Below, piece after piece: positions 3,001-60,400 of a DNA stretch of 64,000 bases (positions are counted from its first letter, which is position 1; each line of letters starts with the position of its first letter). Under the pieces are notes generated by a model. That model was not told where the DNA came from and ran no database searches. It was given only the letters and a program-made list of their open reading frames with translations. The stretch lies in NCBI GenBank assembly GCA_963971405.1, contig OZ020489.1:38659047-38723046 (forward strand), in the 5' to 3' direction. The DNA comes from Psococerastis gibbosa. Taxonomy: Eukaryota; Arthropoda; Insecta; Psocodea; Psocidae. The position numbers were made by a program, and so were the translations under genes.

Positions 3001-6000
3001 AAAGAGTTCAAGAAGTCATTGAAACTATGGAGGTTTTACTGGCTCGCATAACTAATGGACTGACAATGAATGCTGTTGCTACAGATAAATTAAAGGTTGA
3101 AACAGCTCAGGTAGGTGATCGCTATTTTTTGTAAATACAATTTTCAAACTCAATGAAAAGATGTTTTTATTATTTTTATTACTTTTTTTTTGAATGTTAA
3201 TCGCATACAAACAATATAATAAATGTATCCGATTGACCTTTTTTTTTTTAATTGGGGTACAGGTGGTACCTGTGAGCACTTAAGCCTATTGGCCTTTTGT
3301 GCCCCCTACAACAAAGTATCTACATCACTTCTACATCACTTTCTCGAGGCCTATCTCCCTCAGGAGAGCCAGGATCTTGAGGGGATTCGGAAGTGGTAGG
3401 TCTTTTACATGTAACTGCAAGCTTCCCGAGCATGCTGCTCTTCTTCGTGCGATTGCATCGCATCGCATCGCAGGTCCTCCGCACCTTCATTGCAGAATCT
3501 GCAAGGCTATAGTTGTCTCCCCGTGAGGTGAGACTCCAGATATTTATCCCCAGAACCAAAGACGCCAAGGCCTGTTCTTGGTTTTGTACTTCCTTGCCTA
3601 GAGCCATCAGTAAACCACTTGATTGTGTGACTATTGAGAATTCCTGCTTTCCTGCATTCTTTCATTTTCCCTAATATAGTTTCGAATTCCCTCCTAAAAC
3701 AGTATTTTGGATGGATTCTATCGCTTGGCATATCCAGGCAGTGGTCAGACGTAGTCAGAGAGGCTGAGTCTCTCTTAATTGCCCTTCCACTCCTAATAAT
3801 GCCATTTCGGCTGAAGTTTCCACTGCAACATGGAGGGGTGGGAAGTCCAGTACTATCTCCATTGCTGCAGTGGGTAAGGATTTCACAGCCCCTGTAAAGC
3901 ATCATGTTATAGAATACGGGCTTCTGAATGTAGCCATAATTTGGATTATTCAAAGAAAAGTTCTCATATGGTTTGATTTTGCCATGTCCATGAAGCCATG
4001 ACCAATGGTATGGTTACAGCAGGAAAAGACAGGCTGGGCCTCTGTAGGTTAGTCACCGATGGGTGGGGAGCCGTGACGGACGCGCGAGCGCAGAGGTTAT
4101 GACAAGACTGATATAATGATATACTGTGGCGTTATCTACTGACTGTTGTATGAGTCACTAGAGCTCTATATAAGTTCTATATATGGGAGCGCGCCATAAA
4201 TATATCTTGAATTCTGATATGTTGGTATCATAGTTTGTTGAGTTACGACACGTCTCATCAGATTGCATGGCGTGTAGAGATTCGCCCAAGTACATGCACG
4301 CTACCACCTTGCTATCGAAGTCAATGTATAATCATTATTATTGTATATTACCAATGATCTTTGATTAGCATCATTTTCTGCTCTTTTTTACCCTAATTGA
4401 ACGTAAGACAGGGCCACCGCTATGGTGGTTTAGTAAAAAATAAAGTCACAACTTCGTAAGCTGCATCATAGAGGGAACAATAGAAGGCGTCAACTGTCCT
4501 GGGTGCCCGAGAAAAAAGTTTCTGCAGCAAGTTATGGAGGATGTAGGGGCCAAGACATACGTGGAGCTGACGAGGGAGTGCCAGGATCGAGGGGAGTGGA
4601 GGCATCGTAGTCACATGTTGCTGCCAACCAGCCATCCGGCTGTAACTTGAGGAAGAAGAAAGTCATTATTTATCTAGTTATTACTAATTCACTACTGATC
4701 ACTGTGAAATTCATTTGTGCTAAAGGAGTGCCCGCTTTCCTCTAAATGTCTCTGTTCTCTAACGTTTTCAGGGTCTTAGTAATGTTGATATGGCTCAACG
4801 TCTTCGAGAAACACCGACGGCGGTGGGTGTCGAGGACGGACCGGATCAATATTTTTCTGATTTAGTGTCGCGGTTTGAAACTGATGCGTCAAGACTTAAG
4901 GCCCAAGTGGAAGACGCCGAACGTCATATGCGGTCCATTAGTCAAAACTCTGCAATCTCTCCTCAAGGTAATTATATTGGTTCTGATTATTAAGGCGCAT
5001 AGTCCACCGACCTCGTTTTTTATAGTGAGCCTGATATTGACGTGGTAGCAGGCATTAAAGACAGTCTTTAATGTAGTAAAGAGACAGTCTTTAGTCTTTA
5101 TCAGGCTCACTATAAAAAACGAGGTCGGTGGACTTTGCGCCTTAGCTGCAATCGGAGGGGGTGAAACCTTATGGGCGTATAACAACTAATAAATATATTT
5201 GTTTGTGCAATAGTAATTACCTCGATGAAGGTTGTAACAGGGCGTTATTTCGTAACCAGTTTCATTTCCATTAGGTGCCCATTCCATTGACCGGCTAGGG
5301 CTATTTCCAACAACGGTGACGTGGTAGCAGACATTCAAGACTTAGGTGGCGTTTCCACCGACCTCGCATTGCAGAATTGACGGAAATGTTTATTTTCCTC
5401 TATGCAATAGTTAAAATTGATCAATGATCATACAGTAAAATCACAAACAAGCAAACTAAAATTAAAAAATGGCGTCATGGGATATGTTAAGTACAAACAT
5501 TTTAATATATTTCTATAAAAAGAAAAATTATAATTTCCGTCAATGTCATTTGCATTCTGCAATGTGAGATCGGTGGAAACGTCACCTAAGTCTTGAATGT
5601 CTGCTACCACGTCACCGTTGTTGGAAATAGCCATAGCCGGTCAATGGAATGGGCGCCATAGTGCCTGCACCTTACATTTGACTGTAAACCAGGCGATACA
5701 TCGCATCCACGAGTCTCTCGTAGCGCAAGCTGTACAGGTTGAAATGCTGCGCGTGCTGATAGTAGCAGGAGCCGAACAGCATAGATGCCCCGCCTCTTCC
5801 CGTTTGACTGTATAGCTGTAGCAAATGAAGAAAACATGCTGGCGCTGCGTCCCATCCACAAGTTGCTCGTAGCATTGACAGCACGTGTTCAAACGCTGCA
5901 CTGGGAGCAGCTCAATAGTTCAGATACCTGCGTCTCTTTCCTTTAGACTGACAATGGCGCAGAAGATCACGGCCCATAGACATAGTAAAACTATAGACTC

Positions 6001-57400: not shown

Positions 57401-60400
57401 AAAATGCGGGGGGTCGCTTGCCCCTTGATAGTTTGCTTCTGGGGGTAAAAAAATAAAAATAACTAAATTTTAATGAAAAATGACTAAAAAATAATTTTTC
57501 TGCGAAACCTTTCTATCGATGATTTCTACCTTCAGGTATGTTTTAGGTGTTAAATTGAGTAACGAAACCGGACAGGTTGCCTTCCCAAAAAACTATTTGG
57601 TTTTCTGCAAAAAAAATGTATTTGAAAAAATGAAAATTCACGCTTAAACTCATTGCGTGCCCTGCCAGTATTGCTGTGTGTTAATGGGTTGGTCTGACCT
57701 ATCTAGAATTTACCTCACCTCCAGTGATGGTAGGTGGAAACCCCCCCCCCCCCCCCCCCCGCCGAAATACCGGAAATTTAACCACAAGAAAATTATTTAC
57801 CATGAAGTTACTCATTTTCTCTATCTACTAATTTTGATAAATTGGAAAGCATGTTCGAGTAAACTCGGACCGGTTCTCTTCATTTGTGATTAAAAAAAAT
57901 TGTTTTTGTTTTAAGGAGACTATTATGTAGAAACTTAACTTATCTATTATAAATTAAGTTATAATATGGTAGCAGACATCATTAATAAGTCTCTACCATA
58001 GGCGGCAATTCCACCGGCGAATTTACTTCATTTGTGATTTTTTGTTTGTTTTAAGGAGACTATTATGTAGATACTTAACTTATATATTATAAATTAAGTT
58101 ATAATATGGTAGAGACTTTTTAATGATGTCTGCTACCATATTATAACTTAATTTACAATAGATAAGTTAAGTATCTCCATAATAGTCTCCTTAAAACAAA
58201 ACAAACAAAAATTTCAAATCACAAATGACGTAAATTTGCCGGTGGAATTGCCGCCATATTATGACTTAATTTATAATAGATGAGTTAAGTATATATATAA
58301 TAGTCTCCTTAAAACAAAAATCGCAACTTTTTTTAATCACAAATGAAGAAAATAAGAAGTGGAATACACGCCTTAAATGCAACTGCAGCGAAACGCAACT
58401 AAGGATTTCGATAGACAACTAATTGTACCTGTAAAATTTCTAACCGCACTCTCGTACTCAAGCTGGCCAGGATTGTGTTTCTCCAGCCACTCAGCGATTG
58501 GCCTATCCTTAAAACAGCCAGTCAGTCCATTCTGTGTCTGGATATTCTTCAAAGTATCCGCGTCCTTCACCAACTCTATCATCCCCCGCTGGTACCCAGT
58601 GGGCACGCAGCCAAAAGTCACAATTTTCAGGTCTAGACCCTCCTTCAGCCACATTTTGTCCATAATTCGAATCATTTGCAGTGTGAGCATATCTTGCTGC
58701 AGCGGGTCGCCCACCTTGAAAATAGCGGGCACAATTTTGCCTTCGTCACTGTAAAACCGGAGTTTCAGAGGCAACGTTTTGGTTGGAAAGTACCCGCAAT
58801 TTTCGACATCGACACCTGCAATTGTTGCACTTGCACTTAGCGGCAGTCCCGACGAAGAAATTTCCAGATCATTGTTTAATGACCTTAATTCGTCGTGAAG
58901 CGTTTTCAGTCGGAGCCCATCTTTTTGACTTTTTAAATGCTGTGCTATGTCGTATAGATTCTTGACTAGGCACTGCTGGGAGGTGAATCTCTGTCGCATG
59001 GCTTCCCCTGCAATCGCCCAAAGGGCTCGCAGCAGAATTCGCAGTCTACGATGATGCCTATATGAAATCACTTCCACTGTTTCACCACTAACTGACTCAG
59101 CAGAATTTTGGGGCAAATCGCCCGGCAGATTTTGAACTAGCAACCAAAACAGATGGTGGGCAACTCGCGGGGATATCAGAGATCGTTCCAGCAGAAAACG
59201 GGCAAGAGGGTTATTCTCGTACGTTTCATTCTTCAGCGCTTGCACGAGCTGCGGCAGGTAGTCGGCTAGTTCGTCGTTGCTCAGGTCCCGTAGCCAGGTT
59301 ACAGCCAATGAACGGACCACAGCGTCTGGAAAGCAAGGGAGGAGAAGCTGGAGGGCCGCTAATGGTTCCATTTGTTTCCAGCTGTACACCATCGCGTGAA
59401 GATCCGACAAGGACGCATAATCCCAGCGGCTTGCGGCAAGAAGGACTTTGGGTAGTGCTTGAGGGATGCCATGCATGTAGTGCCGCCTGTCCCATAGAAC
59501 TTCTCGGTCATTAGGATCAATTCTCGTAAATGTGTCGAGCAACGAGAAACTCATAAGTGCATCCTGCGTGTGCTGGTCGAGACTAGAGAAGTCATGCTTG
59601 GTGGGGGTGTGCGAGACGTCGGGGAGTGGGGGGAACAGGACGGCGGCGCTATACTGGGGCAGGAACACACGTACCACAGGGTGTCCACCCACGGGGTGTG
59701 TTCCGGGCTCCGGGGCCGGCCCCATTCGCTTGTCAGCCATCACGGGCCACATCGACAACAGGAAACTGCCTTGACTGAGGCGACCCTCATGATCGAAGCA
59801 CTGTATGGCAGACCAGCCGAGTTCAACTTTGGAGTAGTTAGCGACGCCTGGGTTGTGTTTGGAGAGCTCATGATCGGGCGCCAGTAGTGTTAGCCCGAAC
59901 AGTATAAAGACCAGACGGGATTCCTTCGGTAGAGAACAGATAGGACTCTCGTATAACGTTATCCACTCATTAAAAGCTATTCGTGGATAAAAGCTTTGGC
60001 TAATAGGGCAGGGCTCAGATCGGCGAGGCGCCTGAACAGGTCTCGTACCGTGGTACAACTGCACCTCTACCATATACGCGGCAAACTTCCATTCTGGATC
60101 GAGCCGGTTCACTTCGCACAGCAGCACGAGAACAGGGTCCATAATTTCCAGAATACTCCGTGACTCTATTGAATTTCGTGGGGTAGCTTCAACCAGTTTA
60201 AAGTCGACAATGAATGCCTTGCAATAGGCCTCAATTAGTGTCATCACAGCACCAGAGATTTTTTCACAATGTGACAACATTGAATCCTCTAATGGACTAT
60301 TCACAACCACCGTAGAATAAGGACCATGATCGGCAGTAATAGTAACGTCAGAACGTCGCATAAAGTTGTTGAACTCAGTCTTAAAATTTTCCAAGGCCTC

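Follow-up and report, generated by a model that had tools for sequence, protein, structure and literature searches.

Several described groups of transposons resemble, each in its own respect, the palindromes reported here. Foldback elements carry long inverted repeats able to fold back. In the excerpts cited here, Tourist-like (PHIS) miniature inverted-repeat transposable elements (MITEs) are short, high-copy elements with 3-bp TWA duplications, and their parents encode DDE_Tnp_4-type and Myb/SANT-like proteins (PMC4482050, PMC2836001, PMC9710019); the target given for NuwaII is C|TNA|G (PMC4482050). Galileo of Drosophila, which belongs to the P superfamily, is presented in the excerpt as elements with two terminal inverted repeats (TIRs), several TIR subfamilies and chimeric copies with non-matching flanks, and its authors propose that repair copied the sequence of one TIR to the site of the other (PMC3573991). 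For the coral CMITEs, the abstract states that the internal region is more conserved between families than the TIRs and that one family is derived from piggyBac (PMC2872659). We report a family of short palindromes with fixed tips, a common core and differing mirrored arms in a stretch of 64,000 nucleotides from Psococerastis gibbosa (hereafter the window, C14:38659047-38723046) and in the 409-Mb assembly of 68 contigs, which was searched for it.

Modular structure of the family

Most of the hairpins are 140-143 bp long. Read from the outside in, one half consists of the tip (GGCG, four variable bases and letters resembling TTCCAC), about 30 bp of arm, TTGAC and the core GTGGTAGCAGACAT; a short asymmetric centre such as AAAGACAGTCTAAAAATG follows, and then the mirror image of the first half. 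A typical hairpin is two TIRs of about 70 bp (tip, arm and core) joined head to head. Ten arm representatives contain the TGACGTGGTAGCAG motif, nine with its start 43-46 bases from the tip and one, the mini hairpin, with its start at 35; the other 5 of the 15 are without it.

Genome-wide, the core has 28,905 exact matches (14,355 + 14,550) against 4 (1 + 3) for the reversed control pattern, and an exact 52-bp centre has 422 (215 + 207) against 0 + 0; these counts are so far above the reversed controls that chance is excluded. Ten loci at round coordinates (L009, L010, L017-L019, L022-L025, L027; 100 kb) hold 12 core matches with at most two mismatches, from which we extrapolate, as a rough inference, to some fifty thousand core sites, many copies holding two. 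Besides these ten, the loci sampled were the window with its neighbours and others picked mostly for core matches on C1, so that the sample is biased; the hold-out likewise consists of core-bearing C1 loci. The overlapping fetches L003 and L007 were excluded from all tallies except the tblastn count given below. In the window, inverted-repeat and tip scans between 4994 and 58372 found 15 two-tipped palindromes, spanning 98-475 bp, together with part-copies (see the table), in agreement with the earlier count of at least twenty copies or part-copies; every motif named at that time was found.

The modularity of tips, arms and centre is confirmed, and so is the combination of common tips and core with differing, mirrored arms. 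Type-1 centres go with arms F, C and B (for B, one classified hairpin; a second, L062, has a one-letter variant of the type-1 centre and was left unclassed), and type-2 centres accompany D, Bg, E and B arms. Selected for sharing one exact 52-bp centre, eight hairpins have arms that belong to two unrelated groups, in five variants: three standard C, one C variant, two B-type, one F, and one F variant with another tip. Arms B and C are related to each other, and F is unrelated to both. Among 10 hairpins entered by hand with one arm each, centre (loop) identity is 93.5% between F and B/C, 91.3% within F and 97.0% within B/C, and the corresponding identities of the 27-nt arm core are 46.5%, 84% and 68%. 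An exact 35-mer joining the end of the parent-type E arm, the core and a type-2 centre has 436 matches, and L084 is a complete hairpin in which the three are joined. Five matches of this 35-mer are clustered at C1:47040623-47041263.

The claim that the arms are swapped always on both sides has to be softened. Both sides are of the same class in all eight identical-centre hairpins (classed by eye) and in 21 of 25 centre-oriented hairpins, a set drawn from 56 raw matches, mostly chance ones, with a shorter edge margin and a loop identity of at least 78%; in three of the remaining hairpins E is paired with Bg or with an arm outside the classes, in the fourth an arm is degraded, and some columns considered below are one-sided. 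The count of at least eight unrelated arms is likewise right in that unrelated groups exist and too high as a number: the 15 representatives fall into five homology groups with links at z of at least 4, joined by intermediates in stepwise divergence, in a shuffle test which, with hand-picked representatives, is a guide only. Judging by these similarities, part of the arm diversity appears to be ordinary divergence of one spacer, with fewer than eight origins.

Composites of about 384 bp are the commonest copies in our sample; each of their arms has a second tip, 71 bp inside, and between the arms lies a remnant of the start of a MADF gene. The longer copies L009, L011, L023 and L036 have a second tip-like motif 72 bp inside at one end. 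Two of the arm types listed separately in the initial annotation, GGCTAGGGCTA and GCATTGCAGAAT, belong to a single composite family of this kind, as its outer and its inner arms respectively, and TAAGGAGACTATT, also listed there as an arm, is present deep inside the CCGGCGAATTTAC- and CCGTCATTTG-arm families and not beside the tip. A search for the outer palindrome empty of its inner element returned 0 empty centres with up to three mismatches allowed, which neither proves nor excludes nesting. At L022:4440-4763 we observed a one-sided composite, with the outer arm on the left only and TTA on both sides of the whole; apparently an outer tip and an inner tip acted as a pair here. At L017:902-968 (TTA flanks) and at L024:about 7056-7120, hairpins of about 65 bp have kept both tips but little of the arms, so core-less copies also exist. 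Three nearby copies of one F-arm hairpin at L014:5090-6229 have the same flanks (AAATCAGTTA...), and the MITEs may therefore multiply by tandem duplication as well.

Probable copying from arm to arm

If one arm of a copy serves as a template for the other, variants should recur on both arms. At 19 columns with at least four minor letters (third alleles left out), the two arms of 35 composites were compared: they agree at column 14 in 32/34 copies, at column 15 in 32/35, at column 34 in 32/34 and at column 38 in 29/34, with 18.5, 18.4, 17.5 and 21.3 expected by random pairing, and columns 6, 7, 31 and 32 mark a two-copy subfamily on both arms. The 16 composites of the hold-out agree in 15/16, 15/16 and 16/16 at columns 14, 15 and 34 (expected 8.8, 8.8 and 8.5). 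Over the outer 72 columns the arms of one copy differ by 4.7% and opposite arms of different copies by 7.3%, a difference as low as the former being reached in 0 of 5,000 random pairings. The four-base tip variants are the same at both ends in 17 of 25 non-composite copies, compared with 3.2 expected and a maximum of 10 in 10,000 shuffles; in the hold-out they match in 6 of 7 copies, compared with 2.0 expected, a value that random pairing also reached (10,000 shuffles). In locus L103 the two arms have the tip, an AATG change and an arm deletion in common, and L107 has the deletion on one arm only. The two arms of a copy do not drift independently of each other: the mirrored subfamily and tip variants are real, partly replicated, and call for copying from one arm to the other. 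The hairpin copying mechanism suggested in the initial annotation is supported to this extent; the copying is patchy, and the hairpin as its substrate is our inference.

A number of observations weigh against arm-to-arm copying, or limit its extent. At columns 3, 75 and 89, variants persist on one side in many copies (at column 3, T stands on 20/35 five-prime and on 2/35 three-prime arms), which means that conversion is not general and that copying is occasional and patchy. In the deletion common to L103 and L107 a single unit of a 7-bp direct repeat is lost, which could have happened by independent slippage on both arms. Column 38 is uninformative in the hold-out, column 42 is concordant in neither sample, and at no locus were the states before and after conversion both seen. 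The loops are more alike within B/C than between F and B/C, as given above; the exchange of centres is therefore not a recent event in all pairs. In class E the parent TIR is without the core, which makes a role for the core in binding a guess, and the parent search described below found no intact parent with both tips.

Considering all this, we hold it probable that TIR arms were exchanged among lineages and then copied arm to arm, by foldback or gap-repair conversion. The rival explanations are not mutually exclusive, and our estimates need not sum to one. Each arm class may be a separate conventional MITE family, derived from its own autonomous Harbinger lineage, with tips and core kept alike by related transposases and no copying inside the MITEs; the homology groups with their stepwise intermediates, the abundance of PF13359 copies, which belong to several families (150 of 220 candidates were scored), the equality of arm class E with a parent TIR, and the closer likeness of the loops within B/C all speak for it. 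This explanation is strained by the exactly identical 52-bp centres between arms of two unrelated groups, by loops of F and B/C that are no less alike than those within F at a far lower identity of the arm cores, and by the mirrored four-base tip-spacer variants, which are not readily explained by selection for binding; we regard it as quite unlikely.

Alternatively, only the centre moves, and interlocus gene conversion transfers a tract of 44-52 bp between families mirrored from birth. Identical centres with different arms are then explained without any copying of arms, and for these hairpins the rival is a serious one; however, the tract would have to move with almost no flanking homology, and it is left unexplained why, inside one family, arms and tips carry mirrored subfamily variants, so that on the whole we consider it unlikely. 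It may also be supposed that selection pairs the arms by compensatory change, the hairpin being needed, e.g., as a folding or transposition intermediate. The arms are indeed complementary over most of their length, but many copies with inherited unpaired differences (columns 3, 75 and 89) spread anyway, which leaves this proposal very improbable.

For the exchange of arms followed by copying, we propose the following course. As in known Harbinger biology, the transposase and the MADF protein would recognise the tip together with a subterminal motif, and their binding would hold tip and core while the spacer drifts. Occasionally one arm would be exchanged with another lineage (copies with mixed arms are seen), and then one arm would become the template for the other, through foldback pairing or through gap repair after excision; the product would be a new near-perfect palindrome that spreads. 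The copying would proceed in short tracts, mainly from the tip to the middle of the arm, and rarely enough for some left/right differences to persist. The hairpin is the likely copying substrate, and palindromes are well suited to such copying by their ability to fold back; identical traces would be left by gap repair templated by the other end or by a different copy. The likeness of the two ends of a DNA transposon amid the divergence of its family is usually explained in general terms. Here one genome offers many thousands of short palindromes, in which arms, tips and centres can be told apart, along with mixed-arm intermediates, and the rate, tract length and template of end-to-end copying become measurable. 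Repeat annotation by whole-length similarity would split this one family into many.

Parent element and target duplications

The copies are short and non-coding, end in TIRs, stand between target duplications and are present in high copy number, as MITEs are, and their assignment to the non-autonomous PIF/Harbinger (PHIS) transposons is well supported. The parent was searched for with a protein query made of the internal stretch of the composites and a generic MADF tail (150 of 12,797 candidates scored), and loci were found where the MADF frame runs on. At L035, a transposase (1503-2363) matches PF13359 (DDE_Tnp_4; 97.1 bits, cut-off 24.8, 1.1e-27), and a second protein on the opposite strand (3547-3783) matches PF10545 (MADF; 33.2 bits, cut-off 22, 6.6e-8). 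The MADF protein of L038 scores 38 bits to PF10545, and the MADF starts of L035, L036, L037 and L038 align, with 61-71% identity to the first. The left tip of the L035 parent locus is lost, and a neighbouring element, 99% like L032, begins there; the full-length relative with a transposase that had been looked for was thus obtained as a longer relative with DDE_Tnp_4 and MADF proteins, short of one tip. The ends of loci L037 and L038 have no clear family tip.

A 1,319-bp two-tipped deletion derivative with TAA on both sides (L036:158-1476) links the two kinds of elements: pieces of it have their counterparts at both ends of the parent locus, with identities of 94.6% (589 bp), 89.6% (279 bp) and 95.5% (154 bp), and of 92.6% in 68 bp of TIR. 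The MITE L009:6377 is 98.4% identical to the parent TIR over 63 bp, and MITEs of L009 and L011 carry the parent-type TIR. Terminal repeats are common to MITE and parent directly for arm class E only; the other classes are linked to the parent by arm homology with E (B, C, D, I and N), by common tips and core, or by a MADF remnant, and classes J and K are tied in only by tips and a core variant judged by eye. Remnants of the MASWDM type gave 25 tblastn rows at the sampled loci, up to E = 4.4e-4 (the overlapping fetches L006/L007 are counted twice), and the internal stretch of the composites is the start of the MADF gene. Pattern searches for a frame continuing this remnant yielded MITE variants or single unrelated matches (100 of 131 listed; 4 in a second search).

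The first six PF13359 loci give no sign of being the parent, as no family tip bounds the transposase within the 4.4-4.5 kb fetched; one of them, L029, contains one of our MITEs. At L029:1410-4145, a 374-aa transposase open reading frame lies at the PF13359 match, next to another frame, which resembles a YqaJ-type exonuclease.

Identical 3-bp flanks were found in 31 of 54 two-tipped copies (22 of them TTA or TAA) and in 14 of the 23 copies of the hold-out (11 TWA); equal flanks on most intact copies, as first noted, are thus seen in both samples, the rest being different. The 3-bp TWA duplication of PIF/Harbinger is found in both. Of the remaining copies in the first sample, 12/54 combine a TTA flank with a TAA flank, 7 show a different single mismatch and 4 diverge further; in the hold-out these numbers are 6, 2 and 1. 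The 54 copies are those that passed the tip pattern and an arm-identity cut; a flank filter against inner composite tips also dropped the real outer copies 15941 and 55006 (both TTA/TTA), composites were missed (e.g., L050, L052 and L059), the inner part of L022 was counted, and one end of L012 was mispaired with a neighbouring fragment. A two-tipped pair is absent in 12 of the 35 hold-out loci. Beside identical duplications, C stands at -4 in 14/31 and G at +4 in 18/31 copies, the background being about 20%.

Central T/A swaps account for 12/19 and 6/8 of the single mismatches (18/77 copies in both samples), with p of 8e-8 and 4e-5 against an expectation of one in nine, and 0.007 and 0.02 against one in three. 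The exchange of ends between copies could contribute to the TTA/TAA flanks; as their sole source it was rejected, since it would give many other mismatches, and the first sample has 7 + 4. It is tempting to propose, although only tentatively and with the odds against it, that the palindromes extrude as hairpins in cells and that mismatch correction across the stem copies variants and reaches the target duplication (TTA...TTA to TTA...TAA); pairing of the stem can continue through TWA at the cost of one mismatch, in the middle, and its correction would produce the flank swap. The similarity of the arms is no predictor of the swap in our copies (medians 0.95 and 0.925, no useful difference). The TTA/TAA flanks are a possible in vivo signature of hairpin extrusion and, if the proposal is true, a footprint of cruciform extrusion readable in any genome.

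Elements of the window and comparison with described systems

Table. Members of the family in the window (positions are those of the window; an empty cell means that nothing is given)
Position	Strand	Flanks	Kind	Description
4994..5141	.	TAA/TTA	two-tipped	hairpin MITE, F-type arm (CCTCGTTTTT), tips GGCGCATA/GGCGCAAA
5274..5657	+		two-tipped	384-bp composite: outer arms GGCTAGGGCTA with core, inner tips with arms GCATTGCAGAAT, internal MADF-gene remnant
5345..5586	+	CTTA/TAAG		inner tip-to-tip part of the preceding composite; 82% over 158 bp to the right end of the parent locus
15941..16202	.	TTA/TTA	two-tipped	palindrome, CCGGCGAATTTAC arms, deep TAAGGAGACTATT segment
18950..19335	+	TTA/TAA	two-tipped	composite, subfamily with GGCGGGGA tips at both ends
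21544..21612	+		part-copy	one-armed: tip, GCAGAATGCACATGACATTG arm, core
23220..23437	.	TTA/TTA	two-tipped	palindrome, H-type arm (CGTCGTTTTTCATTG)
31170..31300	.		part-copy	degraded hairpin, one-sided B-type arm, type-2 centre
37276..37528	-	TTA/TAA	two-tipped	asymmetric copy, core only in left arm, internal MADF-gene remnant
38955..39073	.		part-copy	part hairpin, C-type arm, type-1 centre
41277..41374	.	TAC/TAC	two-tipped	98-bp mini hairpin, CAATAGTTCAC arm
41536..41675	.	TTA/TAA	two-tipped	hairpin, F-type arm, symmetric type-1 centre
43225..43400	.	TTT/TTT	two-tipped	palindrome, CCGTCATTTG arm
47044..47116	+		part-copy	hairpin, left half only: C-type arm and core; approximate end
48976..49450	+		two-tipped	475-bp deletion derivative: both tips, MADF start, far end resembling the left subterminal region of the parent
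49517..49678	.		two-tipped	hairpin, D-type arm, CCCA tips at both ends, type-2 centre
51532..51687	.	TAT/TAT	two-tipped	hairpin, D-type arm
52814..52953	.	TAA/TAA	two-tipped	hairpin, C-type arm; 44-bp centre identical to that of the F-arm hairpin L014:6138
55006..55145	.	TTA/TTA	two-tipped	hairpin, G-type arm, type-3 centre
57904..58372	.		two-tipped (58001-58255) and part-copies	cluster of nested and part palindromes with TAAGGAGACTATT segments; outermost tip 58372

Beside the last palindrome tip, the window contains an uninterrupted 1,377-aa frame of a class II PI3-kinase (PI3K-C2; 58373-62506, minus strand), whose stop codon abuts the tip at 58372; its best relatives, none more than 44% identical, belong to a sawfly, an apparent ant, cockroaches, a termite and a leafhopper. 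With these mainly insect relatives and an assembly of 409 Mb, an organelle or prokaryote origin was rejected. Two perfect 47-nt inverted arms, 48 nt apart, lie at 15567-15708 and are tRNA-like (Rfam scores 15574-15640 as tRNA). Imperfect inverted-repeat elements, apparently without GGCG tips, are located at 19599-19858, 1806-2056 and 41796-42056.

With the PIF/Harbinger MITEs our family shares TWA duplications, the parental DDE_Tnp_4 and MADF proteins and short high-copy elements; it differs from them in its near-perfect palindromes with a fixed tip and centre and several mirrored arm types. The preference for C and G beside the duplications recalls the target of NuwaII as given in the excerpt. 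Foldback elements differ in that no subrepeat array was seen in our arms, where at most a second tip-like motif occurs 71-72 bp inside. The coral CMITEs, so far as the excerpt describes them, are similar in having a conserved internal region and a changing TIR; here, unlike there, the elements are Harbinger-linked, the tips are conserved too, and only the stretch between is swapped.

The initial annotation knew of no described family like this one. Partial precedents exist in Galileo (PMC3573991) and the coral CMITEs (PMC2872659), as excerpted; for Harbinger MITEs, no description of mirrored arm swapping was found among literature titles and abstract openings, which is no proof that none exists. 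Membership in Galileo or the P superfamily was considered and rejected on the 3-bp duplication and the DDE_Tnp_4 parent, as against a 7-bp duplication and a P-type transposase. Galileo, on its excerpt, resembles our family in the subfamilies of two-TIR elements and in the proposed end-to-end copying, and differs in its superfamily, its 7-bp duplications and its long, internally repetitive TIRs, the elements here being short hairpins with 3-bp duplications. The exchange of TIR arms with later copying from arm to arm, which we hold probable for the Harbinger hairpins, is of the kind already proposed for Galileo.

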